Positions 8,191 to 29,173 of a stretch of DNA of 61,413 nt are shown piece after piece (within the stretch, counting starts at the first letter, position 1; each line of letters opens with the position of its first letter). The DNA lies in assembly GCF_003363715.1 (NCBI RefSeq), contig NZ_QREV01000007.1, positions 1 to 61,413 of the forward strand, in the 5' to 3' direction. The position numbers were made by a program, and so were the translations under genes. The notes under the pieces are model-generated. The model did no database searches and was not told the DNA's origin. It was given only the letters and a program-made list of their open reading frames with translations. The stretch comes from Parabacteroides acidifaciens. GTDB lineage: Bacteria > Bacteroidota > Bacteroidia > Bacteroidales > Tannerellaceae.

Positions 8191-8202
8191 TTTATGTCCA
8201 CA

Positions 8203-8240
8203 AAAAAGCCGCACTCCATATAATAGGATGCGGCCTTTTT
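8203..8240. terminator. Bidirectional terminator hairpin
   Basis: GCCGCACTCC (8208-8217) pairs with GGATGCGGC (8226-8234) with one bulged base. The stem is flanked by A-runs on the left and T-runs on the right, so it can stop transcripts from both directions. On the minus strand it is the likely end of the small-RNA cassette that starts near 8325. Confidence 0.75.
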
Positions 8241-8363
8241 GCTGCTTTCCAGCGAAACAATCTCTCGATCCCCTCCCCGCAAAGACTTTTTGTTAACCTT
8301 AGATCTAAAATACTATGAAAAAAACTCACTGCAAATATAAACTATATTTATTATAAATGCAAG
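8203..8363 (-). ncRNA. Candidate small-RNA cassette, copy E (diverged)
   Basis: On the minus strand, CTTG (8360-8363), a 20 bp spacer and TATATTTG (8332-8339) form a promoter. The body shares the TTTTTTCATA and AAGGTTAACAAA segments with four closer copies elsewhere in the window. The usual GNRA hairpin is absent, and the transcript would instead end at the bidirectional hairpin 8208-8234, giving about 120 nt. The rest of the 8135-8493 gap holds only terminators and AT-rich sequence. This is the most diverged member. Confidence 0.55.
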
Positions 8364-8493
8364 AGCCTTTAGTTACAATTTATTGCAAATTTGTCATTTT
8401 TCCTTTTAAAATTGACATTGTGCGCGATTTCACACTATTATAATATCAATAAACAGCCTGTTCCGGCAGAGGAAAGTCTCCCGGACTCCCCAT

Positions 8494-9477
8494 TCAGATC
8501 GAATAGCGCTCAGGGATGGAATCCAGAATACCGAACAGCTCTTCCACCGTCTCCGCCCGCAACATTGCAACGCGCGTCTGCTTGAAATCCGCAATACCTT
8601 TAAACAACGGAGTAGCAGCCAGATGGCGGCGGATATGCAAAATGCCCCGCCGCTCATCCAAACGCTCGACACTTTGTATGACCTGTTTTTTCAATATGTC
8701 GAGATACCAGGAAAAAGACTCGGCAGGAAGCAATTCGCCTGTATTCAGAAAATGTTTCACCTCCCGAAAAATCCAGGGGCGACCGATACTGCCCCGGCCA
8801 ATCATCACGGCATCCACACCATACTGCTCAAAACGTTGTTTGCATATCTCGGCAGAAGTGACATCGCCATTTCCTATAATAGGAATATGCATCCGGGGAT
8901 TGTTCTTGACTTCGCCGATCAGTGTCCAATCCGCCTCGCCCGTGTACATCTGCGCCCGTGTACGTCCGTGTATGGAAAGGGCGGCAATACCGCAATCTTG
9001 CAACTGTTCGGCCAAATCGACAATGATCTTGTTGTCGGCATCCCATCCGAGACGGGTTTTCACCGTAACGGGAAGTTTGACTGCTTTTACCACTTCACGC
9101 GTGATATCCAGCATCAGCGGAATATTACGGAGCATTCCGGCCCCTGCTCCTTTTCCGGCCACACGTTTCACCGGACAACCGAAATTAATATCGAGAATAT
9201 CCGGCCGCGCCGCTTCACAGATTTGTGCCGCTTCCACCATCGTCGGGACATCGCGCCCGTAAATCTGGATAGCAACCGGACGCTCTTCGTCTGCCACATT
9301 CAACTTCTGCTGCGTCTTGTTGACACTGCGGATCAGAGCGTCTGCCGAAACAAATTCGGTGTACACCATATCCGCACCAAAACGTTTGCACATCAACCGG
9401 AAAGAAATATCTGTAACATCTTCCATAGGCGCCAGGAAGACGGGATGTTGACCTAAATCTATTGTTCCTATTTTCAT
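8494..9477 (-). CDS. dus: tRNA-dihydrouridine synthase (DusB-type)
   Basis: The 327-residue flavoenzyme would reduce uridines in the tRNA D-loop to dihydrouridine using FMN and NADPH. It has the TIM-barrel start APMEDVTDISFR, the DINFGCPVKRVAGKGAGAGM segment with the catalytic Cys, VKTRLGWD, SIHGRTRAQMYTG and the phosphate-binding IIGNGDV/MIGRGSIGRPW motifs. I chose the ATG at 9477 because the promoter -7 box (TACCTTTG, minus strand, 9500-9507) lies between it and an upstream in-frame start, which would not be transcribed. The gene stands alone, convergent with the fumarate reductase operon. Confidence 0.93.
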   Translation of the reverse strand: MKIGTIDLGQHPVFLAPMEDVTDISFRLMCKRFGADMVYTEFVSADALIRSVNKTQQKLNVADEERPVAIQIYGRDVPTMVEAAQICEAARPDILDINFGCPVKRVAGKGAGAGMLRNIPLMLDITREVVKAVKLPVTVKTRLGWDADNKIIVDLAEQLQDCGIAALSIHGRTRAQMYTGEADWTLIGEVKNNPRMHIPIIGNGDVTSAEICKQRFEQYGVDAVMIGRGSIGRPWIFREVKHFLNTGELLPAESFSWYLDILKKQVIQSVERLDERRGILHIRRHLAATPLFKGIADFKQTRVAMLRAETVEELFGILDSIPERYSI

Positions 9478-9499
9478 CTTATAACTTAATATACGCACG

Positions 9500-9507
9500 C
9501 AAAGGTA
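9500..9507 (-). promoter_or_regulatory. -7 promoter element of the dus gene
   Basis: TACCTTTG on the minus strand sits 23 bp before the chosen start codon. No good -33 element is visible. It decides the start by excluding the upstream in-frame ATG. Confidence 0.6.
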
Positions 9508-9544
9508 CTGATTTTCTGCCAAAAACAGAGGGGAAAGGATATCT

Positions 9545-9609
9545 ACTAAGAAATATAGTAAAATAACTATACAATATAGTTGTATTACTAAATAATATAG
9601 TTATATTTG
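9545..9609 (+). promoter_or_regulatory. Triple BlaI-type operator and promoter
   Basis: Three 15 bp palindromic sites of form ACTAnnnAATATAGT lie at 9545-9559, 9566-9580 and 9587-9601, exactly 21 bp apart. They run up to the -7 box TATATTTG (9602-9609) of the BlaI-like gene. ACTA...TAGT half sites resemble known BlaI/MecI operators, so autorepression of the operon is likely. Two-turn spacing puts all three sites on one face of the helix. Confidence 0.75.
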
Positions 9610-9635
9610 TGCATTCCGCTAATAAGAAACAGATT

Positions 9636-9992
9636 ATGGTCAGATTAACAACAAAAGAAGAAGAGATATTAGGTTACTTCTGGGCAAAAGGCCCGCTGTT
9701 CGTACGGGAATTACTCGACTTGCAGGAAGAGCCCAAGCCGCATTACAACACCTTGTCGACAATTGTCCGTTCGTTAGAAGAAAAAGGATATATCGGATAC
9801 AAGGTGTACGGCAATACGCACCAATATTACGCACTGGTATCGGAAGACGAATACCGGCGAAACTCGCTGAAACAGGTGATCGGCAAATATTACGACAATT
9901 CCTATACGCGTGTCGTCTCTACTCTGATCGAGGAAGAAGCGCTCACGGTAGACGAATTGCAGGAGCTGATCCGGCAGATCAAGAACAAATAA
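9636..9992 (+). CDS. BlaI/MecI/CopY-family winged-helix repressor
   Basis: The 118-residue protein starts MVRLTTKEEEILGYFW and continues with the winged-helix pattern of the Penicillinase_R family (HYNTLSTIVRSLEEKGYIGYK as recognition helix and wing). The C-terminal half is the dimerisation part. In this family a membrane M56 protease inactivates the repressor, and such a protease is encoded 14 bp downstream. An in-frame GTG at 9609 overlaps the promoter -7 box and cannot be the start, so the ATG at 9636 is used. Three phased operators in front suggest it represses its own operon. No beta-lactamase is nearby, so the regulated function is unknown. Confidence 0.9.
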   Translation: MVRLTTKEEEILGYFWAKGPLFVRELLDLQEEPKPHYNTLSTIVRSLEEKGYIGYKVYGNTHQYYALVSEDEYRRNSLKQVIGKYYDNSYTRVVSTLIEEEALTVDELQELIRQIKNK

Positions 9993-10006
9993 TAAAACCA
10001 ACACTT

Positions 10007-11572
10007 ATGGAAGCCTTTCTTCTATACATACTGAAATCCGGCATTTGCCTGGCCGTGTTCTACGTCTGCTTCAAGGCGCTGTTCAGCAACGATACCTTTT
10101 TCCGGTTCAACCGTTGGATATTGCTGGCGGGAACAGGCGTTTGCATGTTGCTACCGTTTTGCAGGATTACCACCACGCAACCTCTTCCGCTCAGCCAACC
10201 GGTTAGCCAGTTGGAAACGGTTTTCCTGAAAGAAGAGGTAAACACAACGCCCATTCAGGAAAATAGAACAACAGCGACAGTTACTCCAACAGACAACGCC
10301 GCTATTCCCTGGATAAAACTTATCGGCATCGCTTATCTGACAGGATGTTGCATATGCCTGTCCACGACTGTCCTTTCATTCCGGAAAATGTATCAACTGA
10401 TGCGGAAAGGGAAGAAGCAGAAAAACGGGAAATATACGTTAGTCCTGATAGCCGATCCCATTTCCCCCTTCAGTTGGGGACGTTACATCTTTCTCTCCGG
10501 GGACGACTACCGGAACCATCCGGAAGAAATCCTCACACACGAGAAAATGCATCTCCGTTATAACCATTCGGCCGATCTGCTCTATATGGAAATGATTATT
10601 CTTCTGCAATGGTGTAACCCGGCAGTATGGTTGCTCAAAAGGGAACTGCGGGACATACACGAATACCAGGCAGACAAAGGCGTACTCAATCAAGGCATCG
10701 ATGCAACAAAATATCAACTGTTACTCGTGAAAAAAGCTGTCGGCTCCAGCCTCTACACTCTTGCCAACAGCTTTAACCACAGTAAAATTAAAAAGCGTAT
10801 TACTATGATGTTAAAAAAGAAATCGAACAATTGGGCCCGGTTGAAGCTCGTGCTCCTGGTCCCGGCAGGCCTTGCGGCCTTAAGTGCATTCGCCCGTACG
10901 GAAACGGTAGTGACACCTGTTCAAACTCCTGCTCCGGCAGTCATAGAACAGGTTAACGAAGAGCCCTTGCCTACAGCAAGCAAAAGTACGAATTTACAGA
11001 AAGATATCCAAGATGATTACAATGTCTATCTGTCTTTTACCAAGAATAATAATGAGGGAAAGGAAGTGATAGACGGCATATCCATCTATGGTGTCGGGGA
11101 ACAAAAAGCATTGGAGATTGCAGAGAAAGCGATAAAAAACGGAAGGTTCGCCGCTGCAACCAAAGTAATTATCTGTCCGCATACTCCCAAAGTGCCTATG
11201 AGCTACTTAGAGAAAATGAAGGATTTATTCGACAGGAACAATATCAAATGTAATATTACGAAAGCGCAGGGATATGATGACAACGGGAATGCGCTGCCAA
11301 CCCCGCCACCACCACCTCCTGCACCGGATGCTTACGTCACCCTAAATTACAAAAGCGGAAAGAAAGAGGAAGGAATAACCATTTACAAACGTTACCTCGA
11401 GACAGGTGAAAAGATAAACGAACGACTGGATAAAATCTATTCCGACGATATTTCAACTGTCACCATCACCACCTATAAATGGACTCCGGACGGAGTGCTT
11501 GAGGGAGTTGAAAAGTTCCTGAAAGACAGAATCAAACTGGATGGCGTGAAATATGTGACACAGAAGAAATAA
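10007..11572 (+). CDS. BlaR1-like M56 family membrane metallopeptidase
   Basis: The 521-residue protein has N-terminal membrane helices (5-25, 35-52 and about 103-125), then the M56 zinc peptidase core with HEKMH (about 178-182), a downstream third ligand in the EYQADKG segment (about 219-225), and another helix near 285-300. The C-terminal 200 residues are periplasmic, with a proline run (PPPPPP) near 430, and have no recognisable penicillin-binding motif. This suggests sensing of something other than a beta-lactam. It lies 14 bp after the BlaI-like repressor. By analogy with BlaR1/BlaI it would cleave or trigger cleavage of that repressor; the target is inferred. Confidence 0.88.
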   Translation: MEAFLLYILKSGICLAVFYVCFKALFSNDTFFRFNRWILLAGTGVCMLLPFCRITTTQPLPLSQPVSQLETVFLKEEVNTTPIQENRTTATVTPTDNAAIPWIKLIGIAYLTGCCICLSTTVLSFRKMYQLMRKGKKQKNGKYTLVLIADPISPFSWGRYIFLSGDDYRNHPEEILTHEKMHLRYNHSADLLYMEMIILLQWCNPAVWLLKRELRDIHEYQADKGVLNQGIDATKYQLLLVKKAVGSSLYTLANSFNHSKIKKRITMMLKKKSNNWARLKLVLLVPAGLAALSAFARTETVVTPVQTPAPAVIEQVNEEPLPTASKSTNLQKDIQDDYNVYLSFTKNNNEGKEVIDGISIYGVGEQKALEIAEKAIKNGRFAAATKVIICPHTPKVPMSYLEKMKDLFDRNNIKCNITKAQGYDDNGNALPTPPPPPPAPDAYVTLNYKSGKKEEGITIYKRYLETGEKINERLDKIYSDDISTVTITTYKWTPDGVLEGVEKFLKDRIKLDGVKYVTQKK

Positions 11573-11628
11573 TAAATCCTTATTCTTGAGGAATGTATTA
11601 TCTTTACCCCTTCAAAACAAGGAATACG

Positions 11629-12864
11629 ATGATACATAAAATAAGGCTGGTCATTTTCGCCTGTCTTCTCGTGGCCTGTACGCCAACCGGCCGGGAAGAT
11701 ATTGCAACAACCGGAACACTTCTCCGGCAAGCGGCCTTCTATAAGGAACAGCTGCAATATCTTCCGGCATTGGAAACCTACCGGCAAGCGATCAGGCAGG
11801 CGGAAAAAGAAAAGGACAGCACGGCCCTTTCCCTCGCCTATCTGGAAACGGGAAAGATTTACCGGAACCAGTCTCTCAAACCAAAAGCGCTGCAAAGCGA
11901 AAAGACAGCATTGGCTTATGCCGAAGGAACAGCCTGCGACTCCCTGCGGATAGCTCTTTACCGGGAGATGGCCGATATTTATGCCTTATCCGGACAAACA
12001 GACAGCGCTTTTCACTACTACCAAAAAGCCGGTTGCCGGATCAGGCAGGCCCAAATATTACAGCAAACAGGAAAACAGAAAGAGGCGGAAGCCATTCTGA
12101 AAACAGAGCTGGAACAAACACGTTCCCAAGAAGAGAATGCGGAACTCTATCTGGCCTTAGCCGACCTGCAAATCAGCTGGGGACAGCTGAAGGAAGCGGA
12201 AAAGAATTTAAGCCGGCTTCCCCCTTCACATCCACATCTCTATGCAGCTTTGTCACGGATTGCCCAAAGCCGCGGAGACAGCCTGCAAGCGGACTTTTAT
12301 CATAAAAGCTATCTGCATTATCAGGATGCCTTGCGTAAAGAAATGGAACAAAACCAAGTCACCCAACTTCTCCGCACCTCGGAACAGAAAGAATGGGAAG
12401 CGCGTTTATCCGACTCGCAAAAGACACAACAGGGGCAAATGTACGTCTGGATCGCCCTCTTAGTGTCTTGCGGAACGGGAGCCTGGGGTTATTCCCGCTA
12501 CCGGCTGAAAAGAACGGCTGATAGTTTGTCCGAAACAGATTTCCTCTCTTCCGAGATTTATCTCCGTTTCCACAGAAAAGAAGAATGGAAACCGACGCCT
12601 AAGGACTGGGAAGAATTGCTGCAAGCCTTCAACCGGGCCTATCCGGAGTTTCGCGAACGGCTGAAAAGAAAAATTCCGAAATTAAGCGAACAGGAATGGC
12701 GGATGTGTTGCCTGATCAAAATGGAGGTTCCGCCTTCTACAGCCGCCATGTTGCTCTGTTGCACCAACCAGGCCATTTCGATGCGACGCGTCCGCCTGTA
12801 TCAGAAAACGACAGGTGAAAAGGGAACGCCGGAACAATGCGACGCCTTTATTCGTGATTTTTAA
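11629..12864 (+). CDS. TPR lipoprotein with membrane helix and cytoplasmic HTH-like tail
   Basis: The protein has about 411 residues: a lipoprotein-like signal (VACTPTG), several TPR repeats (about 20-230), a charged coiled region, one membrane helix near 270-290 and a C-terminal segment. In the tail, LSEQEWRMCCLIKMEVPPSTAAMLL followed by TNQAISMRRVRLYQ resembles a LuxR-type helix-turn-helix. The layout matches the protein at 43694-45571. Such proteins are common in Bacteroidetes and their mechanism is not well known; transmembrane control of transcription is inference. The ATG at 11629 is chosen because a TATCTTTA -7-like element near 11600 lies after the earlier in-frame ATG. Confidence 0.72.
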   Translation: MIHKIRLVIFACLLVACTPTGREDIATTGTLLRQAAFYKEQLQYLPALETYRQAIRQAEKEKDSTALSLAYLETGKIYRNQSLKPKALQSEKTALAYAEGTACDSLRIALYREMADIYALSGQTDSAFHYYQKAGCRIRQAQILQQTGKQKEAEAILKTELEQTRSQEENAELYLALADLQISWGQLKEAEKNLSRLPPSHPHLYAALSRIAQSRGDSLQADFYHKSYLHYQDALRKEMEQNQVTQLLRTSEQKEWEARLSDSQKTQQGQMYVWIALLVSCGTGAWGYSRYRLKRTADSLSETDFLSSEIYLRFHRKEEWKPTPKDWEELLQAFNRAYPEFRERLKRKIPKLSEQEWRMCCLIKMEVPPSTAAMLLCCTNQAISMRRVRLYQKTTGEKGTPEQCDAFIRDF

Positions 12865-12930
12865 GCAGATGTGAACTGATGTGAAACCGCCAGAAAAACC
12901 GTTACTCCTACTTTTGCCCGAAAAAAGCGT

Positions 12931-14118
12931 ATGAAAAAGATGTTGTTTTGGCTGATAGCCGTTGTTGCTTTGACCGGATGCGGATCGAAAAATTCCACCG
13001 ATAAATTGCCGGTACTCGATCTGACGAACCCTAATTTTGCATCAGACCGGGTAGAGATTTCAGACGAGATAAAATCAATCGAATATGTTCCGTTGGAACT
13101 GACAGACGAATCCCTGATCGCCGAGATACTGGATTTGGCTGTTTCCGACGATTATGTCTTTATCTATTCCACCCGCCAGGACGGTATTTTGCAGTTCGAC
13201 CGCAAAGGACACTTTGTCCGCAGCGTCGCAAAAACCGGAAACGGACCGGGAGAAACGGCGCAGATCGTCTCGCTCTCGGTCGACGACGAGAACCGGTTGC
13301 TGTGCGTCAGCGAATTTTTTTCCACCTCTTTCTACTCTTTTGACGGCGAGTTTATTAAAAAGGTAAATACATTGCGCCCGTATCTCTGGCAATATTGCAT
13401 CGGTCCCAACACGATGGCCGAAATGGGCCGTGAAAGTATCCCGATGGATACGCCAGGCATATTCAGTCTCGGCGTTTTCAACTTGGCGACAGACGATACG
13501 ATTGCGATCCGCCAGACTGTCGGAAACATGGATTTATTGCCATTAAAAGAAACTTTGCTGGGAGAGTGGAACTTTAACGGAGGCACAGGCGGCATGCTTT
13601 GCTATTCTGCCGGCATCGATACAGTCTGGGAGTTGGGAATGGACGGCATTCATCCTGCCTTCCGCATCGATTTCGGCTTTTCCGCCGACGAACAGAAGAT
13701 GGTACGTTCCGAACCGGGTGCGATCGTAGACGGGAAATACTGGATATCCCGCTTCTTCGAGACTCCGCGCCGCTACATTGTCAAATGTTTCGAAGCCGAC
13801 AACCAGTCACGATTCCATCTATTCAGCCTGGACAAGGAAACCGGAGCGGTATGCCACGAAAAATCTTCAATCGATGCCATGGAACTGTTTAAACATAACC
13901 GGATTCTGACGGGTATCGGCATCCATAACGAGACAGACGGCGGCCTTCCTGTCTGGCCGTACTATTCCTATCCGGGTAAAAAACTGATGGTACAACTCAA
14001 CACCGCCGTAGAGATCGAATACCTGAAAGAGAAATATCCGGAGCTGAAGCAACACCCGGTCCTGCAAAAGATAACCGAAGACTCGAATCCTCTCGTCACG
14101 ATTTACCATTTGCGCTGA
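12931..14118 (+). CDS. 6-bladed beta-propeller lipoprotein
   Basis: The 395-residue protein has a lipoprotein signal (VALTGCGSK). Its repeated four-strand pattern is seen in the family of Bacteroidales 6-bladed beta-propellers (DUF5128-like): IEYVPLELTDES, FIYSTRQDGILQFDRKGHF, then GNGPGE. The GxGPGE turn after the first blade is typical. It is probably surface or periplasmic, and its ligand is unknown. TACTTTTG about 20 bp before the start is a plausible -7 element, so it is likely transcribed alone. It follows the TPR/HTH gene by 66 bp in the same direction and could be its target; that is inference. Confidence 0.75.
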   Translation: MKKMLFWLIAVVALTGCGSKNSTDKLPVLDLTNPNFASDRVEISDEIKSIEYVPLELTDESLIAEILDLAVSDDYVFIYSTRQDGILQFDRKGHFVRSVAKTGNGPGETAQIVSLSVDDENRLLCVSEFFSTSFYSFDGEFIKKVNTLRPYLWQYCIGPNTMAEMGRESIPMDTPGIFSLGVFNLATDDTIAIRQTVGNMDLLPLKETLLGEWNFNGGTGGMLCYSAGIDTVWELGMDGIHPAFRIDFGFSADEQKMVRSEPGAIVDGKYWISRFFETPRRYIVKCFEADNQSRFHLFSLDKETGAVCHEKSSIDAMELFKHNRILTGIGIHNETDGGLPVWPYYSYPGKKLMVQLNTAVEIEYLKEKYPELKQHPVLQKITEDSNPLVTIYHLR

Positions 14119-14138
14119 TCCGCATAAACAGCCCCGGG

Positions 14139-14224
14139 CATCCGCCAAAAATTCCATGGGCATGGAAAAACTATTTCATGCCCATGAAACTAAAGTTGCA
14201 TGCCCATGGAACCGGAGGCGGATG
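14139..14224. repeat. Nested palindrome cluster built on CATGCCCATG
   Basis: An outer stem, CATCCGCC (14139-14146) and GGCGGATG (14217-14224), encloses three CATGSSCATG units. TTCCATGGGCATG (14152-14164) is the exact reverse complement of CATGCCCATGGAA (14199-14211). TTTCATG (14174-14180) and CATGAAA (14183-14189) form a central hairpin. It lies between the propeller gene and the U32 promoter. There is no T-run of a classic terminator. Confidence 0.8.
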
Positions 14225-14253
14225 CAAATGCACATCTTCTCGGATATTATTCC

Positions 14254-14261
14254 TACCTTTG
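14254..14261 (+). promoter_or_regulatory. -7 promoter element of the U32 operon
   Basis: TACCTTTG lies 16 bp before the first ATG of the U32 gene. Transcription would start only about 10 nt before that codon, leaving a very short leader. The -33 element is weak. Confidence 0.6.
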
Positions 14262-14277
14262 CAAGAGTAATCTGTAA

Positions 14278-15549: not shown

Positions 15550-15956
15550 TGAAAGAATATCTCTTTAAACTGACAGACAAAGTCCGTGACTACGAATGTG
15601 ACTTGCAGGGAGTTGTCAACAACTCCAACTACCAGCATTATATGGAGCATACCCGTCATGAATTCCTGGAATCGCTCGGCGAGAACTTTGGAAAGATGCA
15701 TGAGAAAGGAGTGGACGGATTCGTTTCGCGGGTAGAAATCCAGTATAAAACTTCCCTGAAAAGCGGCGACAGCTATATCTCCTGCCTCAACGTGTATAAG
15801 AAAGGCGTCAAACTGGTCTTCGAACAGGACATTTACCGGGCTTCCGACAATGCGTTGGCAACAAAAGGGATCGTAGAGTCGGTAATCGTGGAGAACGGGA
15901 AACTGACACGCGGCGAATATTTCGATGAAATGCTAAAAAGAATAGAACATACATGA
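15549..15956 (+). CDS. Hotdog-fold acyl-CoA thioesterase (YbgC/FadM type)
   Basis: The 135-residue protein has the 4HBT pattern RDYECDLQGVVNNSNYQHYME, where the Asp and following Asn-Tyr region match the YbgC/FadM thioesterase active site. It would hydrolyse acyl-CoA or acyl-ACP thioesters in the cytoplasm, and its substrate cannot be told from sequence. Its ATG overlaps the U32 stop codon by one base, and its own stop overlaps the dprA start (ATGA), so the three genes are probably translationally coupled. Confidence 0.88.
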   Translation: MKEYLFKLTDKVRDYECDLQGVVNNSNYQHYMEHTRHEFLESLGENFGKMHEKGVDGFVSRVEIQYKTSLKSGDSYISCLNVYKKGVKLVFEQDIYRASDNALATKGIVESVIVENGKLTRGEYFDEMLKRIEHT

Positions 15957-17065: not shown

Positions 17066-17107
17066 CCGGGCACTATTTTCATCAGGTAAAATAGAAACGA
17101 AACCCCT

Positions 17108-17224
17108 ATAAACAATTAAAGGCTGTCTCACGACAACCCCTAACCAACTTTGTTAACCTTAAATCTAATACTATTATGAAAAAACCACATTGCAAAGATA
17201 CACCTGTTTTGACCATTTGTCAAG
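17108..17224 (-). ncRNA. Candidate small-RNA cassette, copy A
   Basis: The minus strand has CTTG (17221-17224), a 20 bp spacer and TATCTTTG (17193-17200), a near-ideal promoter. The predicted RNA starts near 17186. It runs through a block almost identical in copies A-D and ends in a hairpin, GGTTGTC/GACAGCC with a GTGA loop (17121-17138), followed by TTTAATTGTTT. Predicted length is about 75 nt. It lies between the convergent dprA and glycerophosphodiesterase genes, where no gene leader is needed, which favours an independent RNA. The rest of 17066-17308 holds no gene. Confidence 0.65.
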
Positions 17225-17308
17225 CATTTTACCGCTAATACTTGTTAAATCAAGGTCTGTAAATAGCAAAAAGATTCTAAACGCCCCTAAAGAGTCTTCA
17301 AAACCACT

Positions 17309-18193: not shown

Positions 18194-18322
18194 GATCTTT
18201 ATATTTATTGATATTCAATCTCGATACAGGGCTTAAAAGTAAGACTTTTCTGGCAGTCTCCTACCACAAAAAGTACTACAAAAACATGAATATTTGATTG
18301 GAAGCGAATGTGGGAGGTATAT

Positions 18323-18439
18323 AAAAAAATTAAGGATTGTCATCCCGACAACCCCTAACCAACTTTGTTAACCTTAAATCTAATACTATTATGAAAAAAC
18401 CACATTGCAAAGATACGCCTGTAAAGCCCGTTTGTCAAG
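18323..18439 (-). ncRNA. Candidate small-RNA cassette, copy B
   Basis: The minus-strand promoter is CTTG (18436-18439), 20 bp, TATCTTTG (18408-18415). The body matches copies A, C and D. The terminator has changed: GGGTTGTC (18347-18354) pairs with GACAATCC (18334-18341) around a GGGAT loop and is followed by a run of seven T. Although loop and flank differ from the other copies, the stem still pairs and one G-U pair is replaced by A-U, which supports RNA function. Similarity to copy C continues upstream of the promoter to about 18545. Sequence from 18546 to 18815 shows no gene or recognised repeat. Confidence 0.68.
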
Positions 18440-18815
18440 CCTTTTACGGACAATATATGTTAAGCCGCAACAAGTATTTTGCCAAAAAGTGTTAGACACT
18501 TTAAAACTATACAGAATACGTGCAAATTCTGCTAAATTTAACAATTCAAACACTCTTTCCTTCCAAAAATATCTGCCTGATCTGCTCGTCACAATTCTAC
18601 GCACCATTCCTTATTGCGGACCATGGTACGCAGATGACAATACATACATTTTTGTATCGAGAAATTACAATAACCCCCTTTTTCCCCATTTTTCTATTTC
18701 GACCAAAATCTTGAACCATTTTGAAGTGTCTCTTTTCTCGTTTTTAACCTTTCCGGCTGACACCGGACGGAACGGGCTGCCGAGTCCATCCCGAAAAACG
18801 TTCAATTTGATTGCA

Positions 18816-19171: not shown

Positions 19172-19202
19172 TCCGAAAATCAGATATAGGAGAATTAAAT
19201 AT

Positions 19203-20666: not shown

Positions 20667-20696
20667 ATTTCAGCTATATTTTATTTTTCAATCAGA

Positions 20697-22181: not shown

Positions 22182-22219
22182 AACCGATCCTTTTTATTTT
22201 GATGTTGATTTCAATAATG

Positions 22220-22251
22220 CAAATTTAAAGGGAGTGACAAAGCAGGACAAT
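22220..22251 (-). promoter_or_regulatory. Promoter of the fused-hydrolase operon
   Basis: On the minus strand, ATTG (22248-22251), a 20 bp spacer and TAAATTTG (22220-22227) fit the Bacteroidetes consensus. The leader would be about 30 nt. The operator-like array begins 10 bp upstream. Confidence 0.7.
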
Positions 22252-22260
22252 AGACAGATT

Positions 22261-22350
22261 ACGGATATGATAACACTATTCACTGATCGTACAAGGCTAT
22301 TTATCAACCGGCAAACACAAATCACTGATTCGCTAACCTTAATTACTGAT
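22261..22350. promoter_or_regulatory. 21-bp-phased ACTGAT operator array
   Basis: ACTGAT occurs at 22282, 22324 and 22345, and ACGGAT at 22261, all on a strict 21 bp grid; the slot at 22303 is degenerate. The array lies between two divergent promoters, directly upstream of the hydrolase -33 box. This is the expected layout for direct-repeat binding by the AraC-type protein encoded alongside. Confidence 0.6.
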
Positions 22351-22388
22351 TCTATGATATGCGTTAATTATTTACCATACAAAATCAT

Positions 22389-22396
22389 TACTTTTG
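22389..22396 (+). promoter_or_regulatory. -7 promoter element of the AraC-type regulator
   Basis: TACTTTTG lies 23 bp before the regulator ATG, giving a leader of about 18 nt. The -33 region is weak, as expected for an activated or lightly transcribed gene. Confidence 0.55.
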
Positions 22397-22419
22397 TAAC
22401 AAAGTAAACAATACGGGTC

Positions 22420-23319
22420 ATGGGAAGTATTATAAAGTTAGAGACTATTCAGGAATATAACTTGCTGTTGGGTGCGGAAACTTTGCATCCCCTTGTCAGC
22501 ATAACAGACTTTTCCAAACTGAAGTCAATCAAACATTGCCGGAAAAACTTCGGATTCTACTGTGTGATTTATAAAGAACTTACATGTGGGACATTACAAT
22601 ATGGCCGTAATAAATACGATTATCAGGACGGCACATTGATCTTCATCTCCCCAGGGCAGGTGGCAGGCATAGATGACGGAGGAGAAACGGTTAATCCTAA
22701 AGGGATCGCGCTGATGTTCCACCCGGATTTGCTATACGGAACTCCCCTTGCCCCCAGGATGAAAGATTATACATTTTTCTCATACGAATCTAACGAAGCC
22801 TTGCATATGTCCGAACGCGAACGCCATATCATCCTCAATTGTTTTAATGAGATCAAAGAAGAATTGGAACACGCGATCGACAAACATACAAAACAAATTA
22901 TAGCCTCAAACATAGAAACGCTGCTCAATCACTGTGTCCGTTTTTATGAACGCCAGTTTGTTACCCGTGAAATTGTCAACCGGGATTTACTCGGTAATTT
23001 TGAACAGATATTAAATTCCTATTATGCTTCGGAAAAGCCTCAAACGATCGGATTGCCGTCTGTCGGGTATTGTGCCGAACAAATGCACCTTTCGCCAAAC
23101 TACTTTGGAGACTTGATAAAAAAAGAAACCGGAAAGTCCGCACAGGAATACATTCAGTTGACTGTAATGGAGAAAGTGAAAGAGTTATTAGTCGAAAGCA
23201 ATAAAACGATCAGTGAAATCGCTTACGAACTCGGTTTTAAATACCCGCATCATTTGAGTAGAATATTTAAAAAGGTAGTCGGCACTACTCCTAATGAATA
23301 CCGGCTGCAAGCCGGATGA
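22420..23319 (+). CDS. AraC-family transcriptional regulator
   Basis: The 299-residue protein has an N-terminal cupin-like sensing domain (about 20-160, with YDYQDGTLIFISPGQ typical of the AraC cupin). The C-terminal AraC DNA-binding domain (about 200-299) has two helix-turn-helix motifs, the second in ISEIAYELGFKYPHHLSRIFKK, and the family ending GTTPNEYR. It is divergent from the fused-hydrolase operon, separated by 238 bp holding a phased operator array, so it likely activates that operon in response to a small molecule. The ligand is unknown. Confidence 0.9.
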   Translation: MGSIIKLETIQEYNLLLGAETLHPLVSITDFSKLKSIKHCRKNFGFYCVIYKELTCGTLQYGRNKYDYQDGTLIFISPGQVAGIDDGGETVNPKGIALMFHPDLLYGTPLAPRMKDYTFFSYESNEALHMSERERHIILNCFNEIKEELEHAIDKHTKQIIASNIETLLNHCVRFYERQFVTREIVNRDLLGNFEQILNSYYASEKPQTIGLPSVGYCAEQMHLSPNYFGDLIKKETGKSAQEYIQLTVMEKVKELLVESNKTISEIAYELGFKYPHHLSRIFKKVVGTTPNEYRLQAG

Positions 23320-23389
23320 GAAAATTCTTGAAAAAGCGAGCGAAGGAAACCGTATGAATAGTATTTGAGATACTAAAAAAAAGAGTATC

Positions 23390-23428
23390 TTTGGACAATT
23401 TTAAACTTACACTTTAAATTTGTCCAAA
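23390..23428 (+). repeat. Long hairpin overlapping the AAA_14 gene start
   Basis: TTTGGACAATTTTAAA (23390-23405) pairs with TTTAAATTTGTCCAAA (23413-23428) with a single mismatch around a 7 nt loop. The last base is the A of the ATG. The -7 box TATCTTTG (23386-23393) overlaps its 5' edge. A near-identical hairpin follows the gene at 24639-24687. It could mark an element boundary or limit translation. Confidence 0.8.
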
Positions 23429-24624
23429 TGCAGAGTAAAGAACTAATATACAGATCCTTGTCAGAAGAGATAAAGCGCTGTTTTGACTTCTTTCCGGTTA
23501 TAACCCTGACTGGCCCCCGGCAATCAGGAAAGACGACAATCTGCCGTGAACTGTACCCAGATCTGCCGTATGTAAATCTCGAAGAGATCGACACACTGAA
23601 CAGAATTAAAGAAGATCCACAAAGTTTTTTTGCCAATCATCCTAATGGTGCCATCATAGATGAAGCACACCATTATCCGGAAATCTTCTCCTACATCCAA
23701 GTCAATGTCGATGAAGATATCTATCAAGGAAAGATGGACCGAAAATTTATTGTGACGGGGAGTAGCAACTTTGCGCTATTGGAAAAAGTTACTCAGTCGA
23801 TGGCTGGACGTACTGCCGTCCTTACTTTGCTGCCACTGTCACAAAAGGAATTACAGCAGGCCGGAAAAAAAACAGATACAGATCGACTAATCTTAAATGG
23901 CGGCTATCCCGCCGTGTGGAAGAACGAAACTGCACGTGAGATAATCTATCGGAATTATTTCACAACCTATATCGAGCGGGACGTACGGAGCATAATCAAC
24001 ATAAAGGATCTGATGCCTTTTCAAACATTCATGCGGCTGTGTGCCGGAAGGATAGGGACAGAATTCAACGCATCGGCCCTGTCAGTGGCTGTCGGCGTGA
24101 GTGTGCCGACAATCAACAACTGGCTTAGTGTCCTGGCCGCATCCTATACCGTTTACCTGCTATCACCTTATCATGCCAATATAGGCAAAAGGCTTACTAA
24201 AACCCCGAAGCTTTATTTTTATGATACCGGCCTGGCTACTTTCCTACTGGGTATAGAGAATGAAGAACAATTAAAAACACACCCTTTGCGGGGAGAGCTG
24301 TTCGAAAACATGGTCGTTAACGAGATGATGAAAGAAGGGCTCAATAAAGGGAAAGAAGAACATCTGTATTTTTACCGTGATAAGACACAAAGGGAAATAG
24401 ATGTAATCCGGATGAAGGCTTTAGACCTCGAAGCATACGAGATAAAATCCGGGAAGAGTTATAATGGCGATTATTACAAACAGTTGAAGTTCTTCAAGGA
24501 TTTATTGGGTGATCAGGTGAAGCGGACAGCTGTTATCTATGATGGAGAAACAGACAATAGGGACTTGATAAACGGACTTTATAATTATCGGGACTTTAGT
24601 TTATATGATAATAAAACACTGTAA
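23428..24624 (+). CDS. AAA_14/DUF4143 ATP-binding protein
   Basis: The 398-residue protein has Walker A GPRQSGKTT near residue 29, Walker B AIIDEAHHYPE near 75 and the sensor-like FIVTGSSNFALL. This is the AAA_14 pattern of widespread archaeal and bacterial ATPases. The C-terminal DUF4143 region has the restriction-endonuclease-like block REIDVIRMKALDLEAYEIKSGKSY (D, E-x-K). These genes are common, variable in number between strains and mostly of unknown role. The gene stands alone, bracketed by two matching long hairpins, the first ending at its start codon. TTTG, 18 bp and TATCTTTG (23364-23393) form its promoter. Confidence 0.88.
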   Translation: MQSKELIYRSLSEEIKRCFDFFPVITLTGPRQSGKTTICRELYPDLPYVNLEEIDTLNRIKEDPQSFFANHPNGAIIDEAHHYPEIFSYIQVNVDEDIYQGKMDRKFIVTGSSNFALLEKVTQSMAGRTAVLTLLPLSQKELQQAGKKTDTDRLILNGGYPAVWKNETAREIIYRNYFTTYIERDVRSIINIKDLMPFQTFMRLCAGRIGTEFNASALSVAVGVSVPTINNWLSVLAASYTVYLLSPYHANIGKRLTKTPKLYFYDTGLATFLLGIENEEQLKTHPLRGELFENMVVNEMMKEGLNKGKEEHLYFYRDKTQREIDVIRMKALDLEAYEIKSGKSYNGDYYKQLKFFKDLLGDQVKRTAVIYDGETDNRDLINGLYNYRDFSLYDNKTL

Positions 24625-24638
24625 ATGTATATATTATG

Positions 24639-24687
24639 GCACTAATGGACAAATTTAAAGTTGCATTTTAAATTTGTCCATTAGTGC
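24639..24687. repeat. Perfect 21-bp-stem hairpin after the AAA_14 gene
   Basis: The arms 24639-24659 and 24667-24687 are exact reverse complements (they start GCACTAATGGAC and end GTCCATTAGTGC) around the 7 nt loop GTTGCAT. The inner TGGACAAATTTAAA arm matches the hairpin before the gene. It lacks the usual terminator T-run and appears paired with its partner as flanks of one unit. Confidence 0.85.
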
Positions 24688-24701
24688 ATACGGCGCAATC
24701 C

Positions 24702-25085
24702 TTACAAAACCAACTCCCTGAACAATGTCTCCAACGTCTGGTCCAGATCGTCGGAGAAACCCGGATGCGGGCGGGAGGTTTGGATGGAGGCGCTCCGAAC
24801 GGCTGTCAGCCAGCGGAAACGTTCCGGGATGTCGAGGGAGGCGATCGGGCCGCCGTCGTTGGCTCCGGAACAGATTCGATCGAAAACATGGAGGTTGGCG
24901 AACAATGCTTCACGGTCCAACTCGGAGGAAAAGAGGTTCAGCTTGTCCTCGTCCACCTTATAAAGCGCTTTGATATATTTCGCCCGCTTCGAGAACAGAA
25001 TGATTCCGACATTGAAAAACTCCTCCCGTTCCACCCGGGGAACCAGTCGGATCACGGCATATTCATATAAGTGTTTTCCTTGCAT
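24702..25085 (-). CDS. DUF3037 family protein
   Basis: The 127-residue protein opens LYEYAVIRLVPRVEREEFFNVGIILFS, the recognisable start of DUF3037, and has a mid-region DRICSGANDGGPIASL. The family is small and cytoplasmic and has no assigned activity that I know of. Its start overlaps the end of the HipA-like kinase gene by 23 bp, and the two families are repeatedly found as neighbours, so they probably act together. Confidence 0.85.
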   Translation of the reverse strand: MQGKHLYEYAVIRLVPRVEREEFFNVGIILFSKRAKYIKALYKVDEDKLNLFSSELDREALFANLHVFDRICSGANDGGPIASLDIPERFRWLTAVRSASIQTSRPHPGFSDDLDQTLETLFRELVL

Positions 25086-25845
25086 CCTGCGCTTCTTTTA
25101 CAAATGTTTCGGAATGGGCCAGTCTTTCACATAAGAACTGATAATAGACTTCTCTTATCTCATCCGGACTGCCGGGGCTATCGCTCCAATGCAACCAGTC
25201 ATCCGGGATCAGGGCGACGATCTCACGTATCTTCTCATCCGTCAGCAAGCGTTTCATGTCGGCATCCGCCTCTTCCAGCCGGGAGGCTTCGGGCAACAGG
25301 ACATGGTCTTTTATCTGCACGAAAGGGCTAACGGCATGTTTCTTCCAGTTCACCCACGAATAATGGAAATAGAGGGAAGCGCCGTGATCGATCAACCACA
25401 GTTCTTTGTGCCACATCAGCATATTAGTATTACGGAACGTACGGTCCACATTGGTCAGGAACGCATCCAGCCAGACAATACGGGAAGCCTGTTCCGCACC
25501 GACCTTTGTCACCACCGGATCAAACGTCAAAGCGCCCGACAAGAAATGCAGCCCTAAGTTCAGTCCGCGACTGCCTTGCAGCAAATCCTGTATCTCCTCG
25601 TCCCCTTCCGTACGGCCGAATGCCTCGTCCAGGTTCAGGAAAACCAGTTCGGGCACGCGGAAACCAAGCGCACGGGCCACCTCGCCGCCTATCAGTTCGG
25701 CAATCAGCGCTTTCGTCCCGTGACCGGCACCGCGAAACTTCACGACATATTTGAACTCATCGTCCGCTTCCGCCAGTGCCGGCAACGAGCCGCCTTCCCG
25801 AAGGGGCATGATATACCGGGTTACATTTGCTGTTCGTAATTCCAT
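25063..25845 (-). CDS. HipA-like kinase domain protein (HipA_2 type)
   Basis: The protein has about 260 residues from the ATG at 25845 (MELRTANVTRY); an in-frame start at 25905 would add 20 residues. Kinase-like elements are visible: VVKFRGAGHGTKALIAELIGGE as the nucleotide and Lys/Glu region, then LDAFLTNVDRTFRNTNML with Asp and Asn like the HipA catalytic loop. ELWLIDHGASLYFH is the equivalent of DFG. These suggest an active serine/threonine kinase fold. It lacks the HipA N-terminal domain, and no HipB antitoxin is adjacent. It overlaps the DUF3037 gene by 23 bp. The target is unknown. Confidence 0.78.
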   Translation of the reverse strand: MELRTANVTRYIMPLREGGSLPALAEADDEFKYVVKFRGAGHGTKALIAELIGGEVARALGFRVPELVFLNLDEAFGRTEGDEEIQDLLQGSRGLNLGLHFLSGALTFDPVVTKVGAEQASRIVWLDAFLTNVDRTFRNTNMLMWHKELWLIDHGASLYFHYSWVNWKKHAVSPFVQIKDHVLLPEASRLEEADADMKRLLTDEKIREIVALIPDDWLHWSDSPGSPDEIREVYYQFLCERLAHSETFVKEAQDARKTLI

Positions 25846-25917
25846 CGCATTCCATTTATTTCGGAGATAAAGATACAAGTTCTTTTTAAACAAACGAAAC
25901 GCCAAAAAGATTCAATT

Positions 25918-27090
25918 CTAATTTACTTCCAACTCTTCCCAGGCCGGGAGTGTAGGGAATTTATTGTGTGGTTCGGACTGGTACCAGAAAACGACAGACG
26001 AAATATCCGATTTCTGAGGCAGATACCGGCCGCCGAGACGCCAACCCAAATCCTGGATCGTCACCCGTAAATCTTTATCGAAACGGACCGGGTCTGTAAT
26101 ATGCCAGCGGTAGAGCCCGAAGCGTTCCTGTGACTTATATGTCCCGTCCGGGCGAATCACCTGATGCAGACCGGCATACGGCGTACAAAATTCCTTATAC
26201 TGCCCTTCCCTGTCGAAGTTATAGGAACCGCAGAAATAGTCTTCCGTCCCTGTTCCGCAAATCGTCGGGTATTTGGTATCTCCATCCATAAAGAATTTGA
26301 TTTCGCCTTCGCCCCACCAACCGTTGTTGTTAACGCCCCAGGCCATATAGACACCGACGTATTGTCCTTTTCCCTTGATGCCGTCGACAATCGTATAGTC
26401 GGAAGTCATATTCGGGTTGGAACGGCGCCATTGGGCATGGAAATAGCCGGCATCCGCCGGAACCTCCGTCAAGGTATAGTCTACCTGGTAATATAAGGTC
26501 ATCGGTTCCTCTTTATTGATATTCTCCATCGTAATCTTGCATTTCCGGCGGAAAGGCATAGTCCAGTAGCAGTTAAAGGCACTTCCGGGATTCACACAAA
26601 CCGCCAGCGAAGAAAGCGGAGCATACACGCCCCAGCCCATTCCGAAGAAATCGCCCACAGGACACTCGACAGAAGGCTCTTTTTCATCATCCCAATAAAT
26701 ACGGAGGATAGAGAAACGCCAGTTTCCGGTAGGAGTCATCCAGATATGCTGAATAGCACCCGGTCCTTCTATATCGGCAAGCACGGCAGTTTCGCCCGAC
26801 TGGATACGGATATACGGATTGACTTTCCATCCCTGCCCCAAATCGCGGGCGGCATGGGCGGCATTTGCGACATTGAGAATGTCTTTATCTTTCGGATCGG
26901 CCATCCCGCCTTTTCCCTTTTCGCCGGTTCTGTTTTCCGGACTGATAGAGCGCGTCTTTGCATCCGAAAGCCGGAACAAATTGCCCATATCGCTACCCAA
27001 ACCATTAAATGATTGTGCAAAGCCTGCCGAAGAGAATAGCGTGAGGCTCAGCATCAGAAGAACACCTTTCAGAACAGTTCCTTTTTTCAT
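25918..27090 (-). CDS. GH172 (DUF2961) glycoside hydrolase, secreted
   Basis: The protein has about 390 residues and a signal peptide ending near SSAGFAQSF. The DUF2961 body has GPGAIQHIWMTPTG, ILRIYWDDEKEPSVECPVGDFFG, WWGEGEIKFFMDGD and GTGTEDYFCGSYNF, where the Glu residues in GEGEIK and GTEDYF match catalytic positions discussed for GH172. Characterised GH172 enzymes act on alpha-D-fructofuranoside or D-arabinofuranoside linkages, often as multimers. The substrate here is unknown and no partner carbohydrate genes are adjacent. The ATG at 27090 fits the signal peptide. The only visible promoter upstream is that of small-RNA cassette C. Confidence 0.85.
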   Translation of the reverse strand: MKKGTVLKGVLLMLSLTLFSSAGFAQSFNGLGSDMGNLFRLSDAKTRSISPENRTGEKGKGGMADPKDKDILNVANAAHAARDLGQGWKVNPYIRIQSGETAVLADIEGPGAIQHIWMTPTGNWRFSILRIYWDDEKEPSVECPVGDFFGMGWGVYAPLSSLAVCVNPGSAFNCYWTMPFRRKCKITMENINKEEPMTLYYQVDYTLTEVPADAGYFHAQWRRSNPNMTSDYTIVDGIKGKGQYVGVYMAWGVNNNGWWGEGEIKFFMDGDTKYPTICGTGTEDYFCGSYNFDREGQYKEFCTPYAGLHQVIRPDGTYKSQERFGLYRWHITDPVRFDKDLRVTIQDLGWRLGGRYLPQKSDISSVVFWYQSEPHNKFPTLPAWEELEVN

Positions 27091-27132
27091 ACACATTAGA
27101 TTTTTATTGAGAATATTCATTTACAGACCCCC

Positions 27133-27249
27133 ATAAACAATTAAAGGCTGTCTCACGACAACCCCTAACCAACTTTGTTAACCTTAAATCTAATACTATT
27201 ATGAAAAAACCACAATGCAAAGATACAGGCGTCAAGCCCTTTTGTCAAG
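27133..27249 (-). ncRNA. Candidate small-RNA cassette, copy C, possible GH172 leader
   Basis: The minus-strand promoter is CTTG (27246-27249), 20 bp, TATCTTTG (27218-27225). The body is identical to copies A and D except near the transcription start. The hairpin GGTTGTC/GACAGCC with GTGA loop lies at 27146-27163, followed by a weak T-tract. The GH172 start codon lies 55 bp beyond and no other promoter is seen between, so readthrough could drive that gene. Homology to copy B extends upstream of the promoter to about 27355. Confidence 0.66.
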
Positions 27250-27369
27250 CCTTTTGCAGACAATATTTGTTAAGCTCAAAGCCTCTTTTCGACAAAAAGT
27301 GTTACAAAGCTCAAAACTTAATACAAAGGCGTCAAATTCTGCTAAAATTAACACTTTTACGACACCAAA

Positions 27370-28155
27370 TCAGAGGGAAAGACGTTCTTTCAGGAGCTTA
27401 TAACCGCCATTGCTTGCCCGCAGGCAAACGCCGTTTTTAAGCCGGACCTGGTAATTTTCTTTTCCGAACAGTTCCACCCGCAGAATCTGTTCGGTATTGA
27501 CGATACAGGAACGATGAATCCGCACAAATACCGTAGGAGGAAGGTGTGTCTCAAAATATTTCATCGTCTGCTCTTTCACGAATTGCCCATCCGGGGTAAA
27601 GAGCGTGACATAATCGCCTCCGGCCTGCAGGTATAACAGTTCATTCAGATGAATGATATGGATGCGGGAACCGTCTTTCACGGAAACCCGGTCCAGGAAA
27701 GCCTCTTCGGCCTGTACAGGTTCTACCGTTTCTATTTCAGAAGCCTCTTCAAACTCCTGATCATCGGTCCGGTTCATCCGGTACCATTGCAGCAGGACGA
27801 TCCAGCATAAGATACCGAAAACCAGGCGAAGGGGTATCGTGTGGACAAAATCATCAGTGGTTCCCTGTTCCAGTAGCACTTGCAGTTCGAATGCCCCGGC
27901 CAAGCTGATTGCCTGAACCAACACTGCCAGTGCAACCCGTATCTGCAAGGCATGGATAGTTCCGTCGACATATCCATACAGGAAACCCGCCACAGCCAAC
28001 AATCCGACGGAAACCAGGCCATCTAAGCAGGCATTCCACAACCCCTCCTGCCCATAGCAAAACAGGAGCCATGCATAAACCATCCATGCCACTACCGCCA
28101 GGGTAATCCCCATTATGCGGTTAACGACCGATTCTATAAATGGATGCGTCTGCAT
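27370..28155 (-). CDS. Membrane-anchored LytTR transcription regulator
   Basis: The 261-residue protein has four predicted membrane helices in its first 140 residues and a LytTR DNA-binding domain at the C-terminus (about 160-261; HLNELLYLQAGGDYVTLFT, then FVRIHRSCIVNTEQILRVELFGKENYQV). It has no response-regulator receiver, so it probably senses at the membrane directly. It lies 3 bp after the LiaF-like gene. The pair faces away from four DUF2807 genes, possible targets by analogy with envelope-stress systems (inference). Confidence 0.87.
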   Translation of the reverse strand: MQTHPFIESVVNRIMGITLAVVAWMVYAWLLFCYGQEGLWNACLDGLVSVGLLAVAGFLYGYVDGTIHALQIRVALAVLVQAISLAGAFELQVLLEQGTTDDFVHTIPLRLVFGILCWIVLLQWYRMNRTDDQEFEEASEIETVEPVQAEEAFLDRVSVKDGSRIHIIHLNELLYLQAGGDYVTLFTPDGQFVKEQTMKYFETHLPPTVFVRIHRSCIVNTEQILRVELFGKENYQVRLKNGVCLRASNGGYKLLKERLSL

Positions 28156-28158
28156 AAA

Positions 28159-28923
28159 TCAACTTTTAAACTCGATACCTCCGAAAGAGACTCTTCCTCT
28201 TACTAAGAGTACGTGTTCCCTGTCTATTTCTATAGATGTGTTGTATCGCTTATCGTCACACCCGCCGATAAGAGCATCGATCTGCGTTTGCAAGTTCCAG
28301 TCCGAGGGCAAATAAATTTCGACTCCGCCAAAGGTGCAGTCCACGTCTATTGCAGTCTGTGCAGCTTCCAGCCGTGTCCGGCGCAGGTCCAGGATAGTCC
28401 CGCCGAATGTATTTTTAATCCGCGCCCCTCTAAAGACCGGGTCCAACACAATCTGCCGGACGGAACCAAACGTATTATCCGAAACCACATACCCGTCTTG
28501 CGAGCTGTAAACCTCTTTGGCATATTCCGTCCTTCCGTCCCAACGGCGACGGGAGGCATGATGTCGCGGCTTAAAAAGAATCATGAGTCCTGTTGCAATG
28601 AGAAAGATCGGCCAAAATGCGTTGTCCCACTCCCTCCCCATACTGGTTATTTCGGGTAACAAAAAATAAACACCGATAGCGATCGTAACAAAACCACCTA
28701 TAAAATGCCGCTTAATCAGGTTCACGACACCAACCACAACCAGCAACATCTGCCACGACACTAAAATATCGAAAAGATAAGAATCGATCAGCCCGAAATT
28801 CCTTCCGAGATAGAGCAAGCCGACTATAATAAATACAGCAGCAGTTGCAAGTGTATTCAGTCTCTTGTGGTGAGGGAAGCCACCTCTGTAAAAATTTCCC
28901 TGTTGATTTGTTTCCATACTCAT
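28159..28923 (-). CDS. LiaF-like membrane protein (DUF5668 + LiaF C-terminal domain)
   Basis: The 254-residue protein has four short membrane helices (about 22-120), where GLLYLGRNFGLI and WPIFLIATGLMILF follow the DUF5668/LiaI-LiaF pattern. A soluble C-terminal domain (about 145-254) has repeated NTFGGTILDLR, CTFGGVEIYLP and SFGGIEF turns of the LiaF-type beta-helix fold. In Firmicutes LiaF represses an envelope-stress system. Here the partner is a LytTR protein encoded 3 bp downstream. Promoter ATTG-20-TAGTTTTG is at 28941-28972. Confidence 0.85.
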   Translation of the reverse strand: MSMETNQQGNFYRGGFPHHKRLNTLATAAVFIIVGLLYLGRNFGLIDSYLFDILVSWQMLLVVVGVVNLIKRHFIGGFVTIAIGVYFLLPEITSMGREWDNAFWPIFLIATGLMILFKPRHHASRRRWDGRTEYAKEVYSSQDGYVVSDNTFGSVRQIVLDPVFRGARIKNTFGGTILDLRRTRLEAAQTAIDVDCTFGGVEIYLPSDWNLQTQIDALIGGCDDKRYNTSIEIDREHVLLVRGRVSFGGIEFKS

Positions 28924-28940
28924 ATCATTTTAATTTGCTG

Positions 28941-28972
28941 CAAAACTACGGTCAGCGAGTCACTTACGCAAT
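28941..28972 (-). promoter_or_regulatory. Promoter of the LiaF-like/LytTR operon
   Basis: On the minus strand, ATTG (28969-28972), a 20 bp spacer and TAGTTTTG (28941-28948). Upstream, 28985-29030 holds a GAATAC-TCCG-GTATTC hairpin of unknown role. The remainder of 28924-29300 holds small-RNA cassette D and an AT-rich start region for the DUF2807 genes without a convincing promoter. Confidence 0.65.
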
Positions 28973-29057
28973 AGAAACACGGCCGGTAACGGGTAAATCC
29001 CGATGAATACCGGAGTATTCCCGATAAAAAAAGGCTCCTGCACCGGCAGAAACCCCT

Positions 29058-29173
29058 ATAAACAATTAAAGGCTGTCTCACGACAACCCCTAACCAACTT
29101 TGTTAACCTTAAATCTAATACTATTATGAAAAAACCACGATGCAAAGATACGGGCTTTTCCGAATTTGTCAAT
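29058..29173 (-). ncRNA. Candidate small-RNA cassette, copy D
   Basis: The minus-strand promoter is ATTG (29170-29173), 19 bp, TATCTTTG (29143-29150). The body and GTGA-loop hairpin (29071-29088) are identical to copy A. It sits in the divergent region between the LiaF-like gene and the DUF2807 array. The LiaF-like gene has its own promoter downstream of this cassette, so the RNA does not need to be its leader. Confidence 0.65.

Follow-up and report, generated by a model that had tools for sequence, protein, structure and literature searches.

The closest described relatives of the elements treated here are the FopS RNAs ("family of paralogous sRNAs", sRNA standing for small RNA), of which 14 members were described in Bacteroides thetaiotaomicron (Ruttiger et al. 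2025, Nat Commun, PMC11697453). According to the main text of that paper, FopS RNAs carry a 5' seed, R1', and repress the translation of susC, i.e., SusC-like transporters; the protein RbpB antagonises them, bile salts induce them, and an unknown transcriptional regulator is possible. The B. thetaiotaomicron members have been annotated as sRNAs and their ends curated; one of the 14 derives from a 3' untranslated region. The published bands are ~65 and ~70 nt long, and according to the authors the family's conservation within Bacteroidaceae is high. A search of the main text for the words Parabacteroides, Tannerella, Porphyromonas, "inverted repeat" and "palindrom" has no hits. Here, we compare this family with five cassettes in a stretch of 61,413 nucleotides from Parabacteroides acidifaciens (assembly GCF_003363715.1, contig NZ_QREV01000007.1, positions 1 to 61,413; this whole stretch is called the window). 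Judged from sequence, four of them (at 17.1, 18.3, 27.2 and 29.1 kb) are very probably FopS genes that repress susC-type translation; the 8.2-kb cassette, likewise very probably, encodes a longer member of their superfamily. On this evidence, the cassettes are a known sRNA family in a genus absent from the main text of the FopS paper, together with a longer subtype and a sister RNA.

FopS genes of a longer subtype and their predicted targets

At curated Rfam cut-offs, the window contains four matches to FopS (RF04319, cut-off 56 bits) and one tRNA, and nothing else; there is no Bacteroidales-1 RNA at these cut-offs. The RF04319 match speaks against the novelty claimed by the sequence-only reading of this DNA, which had found no described family to fit and had itself named a known Rfam family as the outcome that would tell against it. 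Most of what that reading described stands: the five cassettes lie on the minus strand where it had placed them, and both promoter boxes and the RNA are conserved while spacers and flanks vary. An independently transcribed, multicopy sRNA remains the best-supported reading, because the boxes are conserved, the seed is predicted to be unpaired, changes in the terminator stem compensate each other, and the Rfam cut-off is passed. The length of ~75 nt proposed earlier gives way to predictions of ~83 nt (82-84) for the four copies and ~126 nt at 8.2 kb. With up to three mismatches, the body TTAGATTTAAGGTTAACAAAG and the block of the -7 box and 5' end, TATCTTTGCANNGTGGTTTTTTCATA, each have five matches in the window, versus 0 in 100 dinucleotide shuffles.

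All coordinates below refer to the minus strand; boxes were read from the sequence and hairpins taken from folds. The 17.1-kb copy (17106..17188, 5' end at 17188, ~83 nt; 58.0 bits; fold -17.9 kcal/mol, z -2.54) has the R1/R1'-type seed GTATTAGATTTAAGGTTAACAAA at 17149..17171, corresponding to the query consensus published in PMC11697453, and a terminator hairpin at 17114..17145; its -7 box lies at 17193..17200 and its -33 box at 17218..17223. The 18.3-kb copy (18320..18403; 62.6 bits; -16.9 kcal/mol, z -2.46) has its hairpin at 18328..18360 and its boxes at 18408..18415 and 18433..18438; the corresponding positions are 27139..27170, 27218..27225 and 27243..27248 for the 27.2-kb copy (27132..27213; 57.6 bits; -17.9 kcal/mol, z -2.77), and 29064..29095, 29143..29150 and 29167..29172 for the 29.1-kb copy (29056..29138; 58.0 bits; -17.9 kcal/mol, z -2.54). 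In all four copies, the -7 box is TATCTTTG and the -33 box TTGACA, separated from TTG by spacers of 20, 20, 20 and 19 nt in the above order. The hairpin loop is GTGA at 17.1, 27.2 and 29.1 kb, and GGGAT at 18.3 kb, where the stem is intact and the T-run longer. These details, too, had been read correctly before.

We define two classes of FopS copies: class I has the published 5' end GTGTTTTTCATRGTATTAG, and class II, the window type, has GTGGTTTTTTCATAATAGTATTAG and a longer linker. The four window copies are like published FopS RNAs in the R1' seed GTATTAGATTTAAGGTTAACAAA, in the predicted unpaired seed followed by an intrinsic terminator hairpin (alignments and folds), and in being multicopy, each with its own promoter of sigma-ABfr type by sequence; the class I copies of this genome lack the TTG -33 box. 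Class II differs in having GTGGTTTTTTCATAATAG where the published consensus is GTGTTTTTCATAG. The class II fold comprises the unpaired seed, a weak helix of four pairs at nt 1-13 and a hairpin of 14 pairs (z -2.46 to -2.77).

For comparisons across copies, removing duplicates of the same upstream DNA took the set from 248 copies to 236; copies that contain runs of N, have <150 nt upstream or depart from the core pattern are not included. The class I set (n = 92, mostly top-scoring RF04319 rows) draws 49 copies from relatives in the genus, 28 from other members of the order, nine from viral contigs and six from the genome studied; the relatives' copies come from 80 stretches with 82 listed copies in 13 genomes. 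There are 60 distinct terminator hairpins in 144 class II copies and 43 in 92 class I copies, with several pair types per position. It should be noted that the stems are the best-pairing pick per copy, and at least eight class II copies received a different stretch; the share of paired cells is therefore no evidence, and it is the variety of pairs that counts.

Searching the whole genome with the FopS model yields 22 rows at E<=10, 13 of them with E<0.005 and nine above the cut-off. Above the cut-off, the genome has four class I copies (L001-L004); its class II copies number six (L005-L010, L010 being partly masked). The sixth class II copy, L010, is among the 13 and lies just beyond the window end on the same strand (G000:C112:61662-61742); its 5' end and promoter read N in part. 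It is absent from the copy set because of its N run; the 8.2-kb copy (L012) is absent from that set as well. Two further loci, L011 (1501-1578, G000:C63) and L013 (1501-1583, C35), have a FopS/GibS-like 5' end without the TAnnTTTG box; their promoters look PM2-like, by eye only, and both loci were counted in class I.

Among this genome and 40 relatives, FopS matches occur in 30 of 41 genomes, including all 25 of the genus; in a sample of the order, 34 of 149 genomes have matches, 27 of them above the cut-off. An exact scan of genome contigs with a single 26-nt pattern finds class II in at least 119 stretches. Among the matches listed, class II comes from Parabacteroides, Tannerella and other Tannerellaceae, Massilibacteroides, Dysgonomonadaceae, Proteiniphilum, Seramator, Candidatus Azobacteroides and Symbiothrix, Porphyromonas and Porphyromonadaceae, and unnamed Bacteroidales, Bacteroidia and Bacteroidetes. 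All class II matches listed carry these names, termite symbionts among them, from which absence from Bacteroides does not follow. Together, the order-wide matches and the record names among the matches listed indicate that FopS reaches beyond this genus and beyond Bacteroidaceae.

Under the proposed mechanism, each cassette would be transcribed from its own sigma-ABfr-type promoter into an RNA with an unpaired 5' seed and a terminator hairpin. The 5' part would base-pair with susC-type mRNAs, whose genes come first in polysaccharide-utilisation operons, at their translation start and so block translation, and the RNA recognition motif (RRM) protein RbpB would counteract FopS; this genome encodes four RRM_1 proteins. 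The mechanism was shown in print for B. thetaiotaomicron FopS (main text of PMC11697453); for the window copies, we infer it from family membership and computed complementarity. Duplex energies were computed for the 30 best-scoring of 56 susC genes, with start codons set by a signal-peptide rule of our own making. Against these starts, class II nt 1-45 give a mean of -18.07 kcal/mol, versus -13.47 (standard deviation 0.79) for shuffled sequences, and none of 100 shuffles is as good; the same holds for the seed alone (-9.74 versus -7.27, 0/100) and for the first 17 nt (-9.45 versus -6.72, 0/100). There is no excess for the 3' tail at susC starts (-16.04 versus -15.75, 35/100), for nt 1-45 at stretches upstream of susC (25 stretches, 62/100) or within its coding part (30 stretches, 85/100), or for class II at the starts of 40 window genes (49/100). 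The class I 5' end behaves alike (susC, 0/100; window genes, 20/100).

Several points weigh against assigning these copies to FopS as susC repressors. The predicted ~83 nt of class II exceed the published 65-70 nt. Three copies (17.1, 27.2 and 29.1 kb) have a weak T-run, TTTAATTGTTTAT, so that read-through is possible. The susC start codons depend on our own rule, and the 40 window genes, which have mechanical open reading frame (ORF) starts and include the window's own susC, make a weak control. Furthermore, 30 susD starts also pair above shuffles (nt 1-45, -16.16 versus -12.79 kcal/mol, 0/100, z -4.2; seed, 1/100, z -2.7), so that the signal is not exclusive to susC. The computed pairing agrees with the published susC mechanism, though susD starts share part of the signal.

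The longer RNA at 8.2 kb

The sequence-only reading had treated the 8.2-kb cassette as a mere diverged copy; it appears instead to be a separate, longer conserved RNA of ~126 nt with a different 3' half, which we call class III. It scores 34.8 bits against the FopS cut-off of 56 and 44.8 bits against the GibS (RF04182) cut-off of 115, and is therefore filed under neither family; the whole genome contains no GibS match above 115. The predicted RNA (8202..8327) consists of a FopS-like 5' region, an internal hairpin (8244..8286, in both the fold and the consensus structure) and its own terminator hairpin with T-run (8202..8242, from the fold); the alignment and covarying pairs described below support it. 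Upstream, the -7 box TATATTTG (8332..8339) and the -33 TTG (8360..8362) are separated by 20 nt, as reported earlier.

All 38 genus genomes searched for class III match if short FopS-like matches count; in 20 of the 38, this one included, the alignment covers at least 84 of 151 nt. The 20-row alignment shows an invariant 5' block, GAGTTTTTTTCATAGTATTTTAGATCTAAGGTTAA, the internal hairpin and the terminator. Both sides have changed in 8 of 22 consensus pairs, and some pairs break in up to 5 of the 20 rows; the RNA's own fold has a z of -3.85. The class III loci of four relatives have no Rfam match at the cut-off, and part of the 5' block, searched as an exact 26-mer, has none in viral contigs.

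GibS resembles the 8.2-kb RNA in the type of 5' end, in length and in having extra structure after the seed. The differences are the score below the cut-off, the different 3' half, and the canonical -33/-7 boxes (TTG-N20-TATATTTG) in place of PM2, a promoter type described with elements at -10 and -30; this last comparison relies on those described positions. Class III is very probably a longer RNA of the same superfamily as FopS. Its seed, AGATCTAAGG, has AGATCT in place of the FopS AGATTT, and because of this variant its targets may differ from those of FopS. That Parabacteroides adds, in this ~126-nt molecule, a third RNA with a variant seed and targets of its own is part of a tentative wider reading (a single regulon of FopS genes, see below), to which we give, as a whole, a little less than an even chance.

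Conserved upstream elements of the promoters

Two elements recur upstream of FopS genes: E1, a dyad TATGYT-N4-ARCATA, and E2, a near-palindrome TTAA-N6-TTAA. In the window, E2 was read as TTAACAAGTATTAG at 17235..17248, as TTAACATATATTG at 18451..18463 and as TTAACAAATATTG at 27261..27273, at the place of the de novo motif found around -58 in class II. The 29.1-kb copy has an E1-like dyad with one mismatch, TATGCTGTACAACACA (29190-29205), overlapped by an E2-like sequence, AACACAAATTAGCA (29182-29195; jointly 29182..29205).

Unsupervised motif searches were run on copies chosen, in class I, to be <70% identical over 110 nt upstream; the controls were three sets shuffled by mononucleotide, which were searched from fewer starting points than the real sequences. 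Among 62 class I copies, 41 have ATGCTGTATAACATA (LL 607 versus 65-75 in shuffled sets), which lies at -34 to -37 on this strand in 35; TTAAATAATGTTAA is found in 56 (LL 320 versus 64-76), and in 47 of these its position is -75 to -77. The reverse form, a AACATTATTTAGCA-like sequence, is carried by 91 of 100 class II copies (LL 526 versus 73-77), in 66 cases at -58/-59. With up to 2 of 12 mismatches, E1 occurs in 34 of 122 class II copies, starting at -67 or -68 in 28 of the 34, versus 65 of 1220 shuffled sequences.

At -38 to -32, 67/92 class I and 1/144 class II copies have E1 (<=3 mismatches), and 26/92 and 134/144, respectively, have TTG; seven class I copies have both and six neither. By source, E1 is present in 48 of 49 class I copies from genus relatives, 4/6 from this genome, 15/28 from elsewhere in the order and 0/9 from viral contigs; TTG is present in 8 of the 9 viral copies. 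These counts indicate that most copies have either E1 or the -33 box, and that the E1 design is most pronounced in this genus. Eight of the nine viral class I copies (IMG/VR, L182-L195) keep an E2-like TTAA-N-GTTA at the same place, so the FopS gene seems to travel with its promoter.

E1 and E2 are candidate sites for a FopS regulator: E1, as a dyad over the -33 box, may be a repressor or MerR-like site, and E2 an activator site. The main alternative is that both are A+T-rich promoter features, such as UP-like DNA or alternative promoter boxes, and not regulator sites. Both elements are indeed A+T-rich, the TATG of E1 overlies the -33 box, and most class I copies with E1 (52/67) are from one genus; moreover, exact E1 occurs at 10 places in this genome and its reversed pattern, as a control, at four. 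Nevertheless, E1 is a dyad with fixed C/G positions, its 67/92 compare with a mean of 2.6 for permuted motifs (single permutations reach 47), more than half of the copies elsewhere in the order have it, and both elements hold their positions among copies <70% identical. We therefore regard the promoter-feature explanation as unlikely, although of appreciable weight.

There is a roughly even chance that the copies are switched together through the conserved upstream elements (E2 in both classes, E1 in 67/92 of class I). Slightly less probable is a wider reading, in which FopS genes across Bacteroidales make up a single regulon under a dimeric regulator, or two, that would read E1 and E2. In this reading, their promoters come in two interchangeable designs, one with the -33 box and one with the dyad in its place, the latter dominant in Parabacteroides class I and making up about half of class I sampled elsewhere in the order.

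Four of the 10 exact E1 places are the promoters of L001-L004, and six are not FopS promoters. Three of the latter (1501-1516 in L197, L199 and L201) lie before genes that we take to be a small lipoprotein-like gene, lrgA and an aldolase-like gene, and the remainder before other genes. Of four further genomes of the genus, three also contain the L197 16-mer, and both loci inspected there (L367, L370) have it in front of the same gene; three of the four contain the L199/L201 16-mer, which precedes the aldolase-like gene in the single locus inspected (L380). Among the genes at the six exact E1 sites outside FopS promoters, none is conspicuous as a regulator. A LiaF-like gene and a LytTR regulator lie at 27370-28923, between the 27.2- and 29.1-kb FopS copies. 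Both occur in only 8 of the 119 class II loci listed, so that a regulator link is a guess. The identification of E1 with the published PM2 was rejected, since PM2 is described with elements at -10 and -30. Neither E1 nor E2 was found in the text of the open-licence PMC papers searched.

Leaders or mobile repeats as unlikely alternatives, and the meaning of the FopS genes

The cassettes could also be 5' leaders or attenuators of the following genes (gdpd, DUF2961, liaF) rather than free sRNAs. The 18.3-, 27.2- and 29.1-kb copies are each upstream of a same-strand gene, the 27.2-kb copy only ~11 nt before the mechanical ORF start, and the weak T-runs of three copies would suit a leader. However, the 17.1- and 8.2-kb copies sit between convergent genes, as the earlier reading had it. 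The neighbours differ, too: 81 of the 119 class II loci listed (up to 8 kb each) match none of 13 window genes tested, and B. thetaiotaomicron FopS members are annotated as sRNAs with curated ends (main text of PMC11697453). We regard the leader explanation as very unlikely.

The body, as an exact 22-mer, is present in 15 IMG/VR viral contigs, and weaker similarity was found in four phage and 14 plasmid records. Relatives of dprA and of the iron-sulphur subunit gene (7379) occur in 19 and 13, respectively, of the 119 class II loci listed; such neighbours recurring between species make some positions seem old, although it is presence in the locus, not adjacency, that was counted. That the repeat is an insertion sequence end or another mobile repeat, as its multiple copies, the viral contigs and the FopS authors' suggestion that phages may have spread the genes (PMC11697453, main text) could imply, was rejected as extremely improbable, since a scan of ten neighbouring genes revealed no transposase family, promoter boxes and RNA stay conserved next to varying spacers and flanks, stem changes compensate, and some neighbours recur between species.

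The FopS family itself was already described; what appears new is the class III sister RNA and the shared upstream elements as candidate control sites. Finding FopS outside Bacteroidaceae, together with a sister RNA and a subtype of greater length, would widen this circuit for the control of sugar uptake. The conserved promoter elements may give a handle on a question that the FopS paper (PMC11697453), in its main text, leaves to be answered, namely which regulator induces these sRNAs under bile stress.

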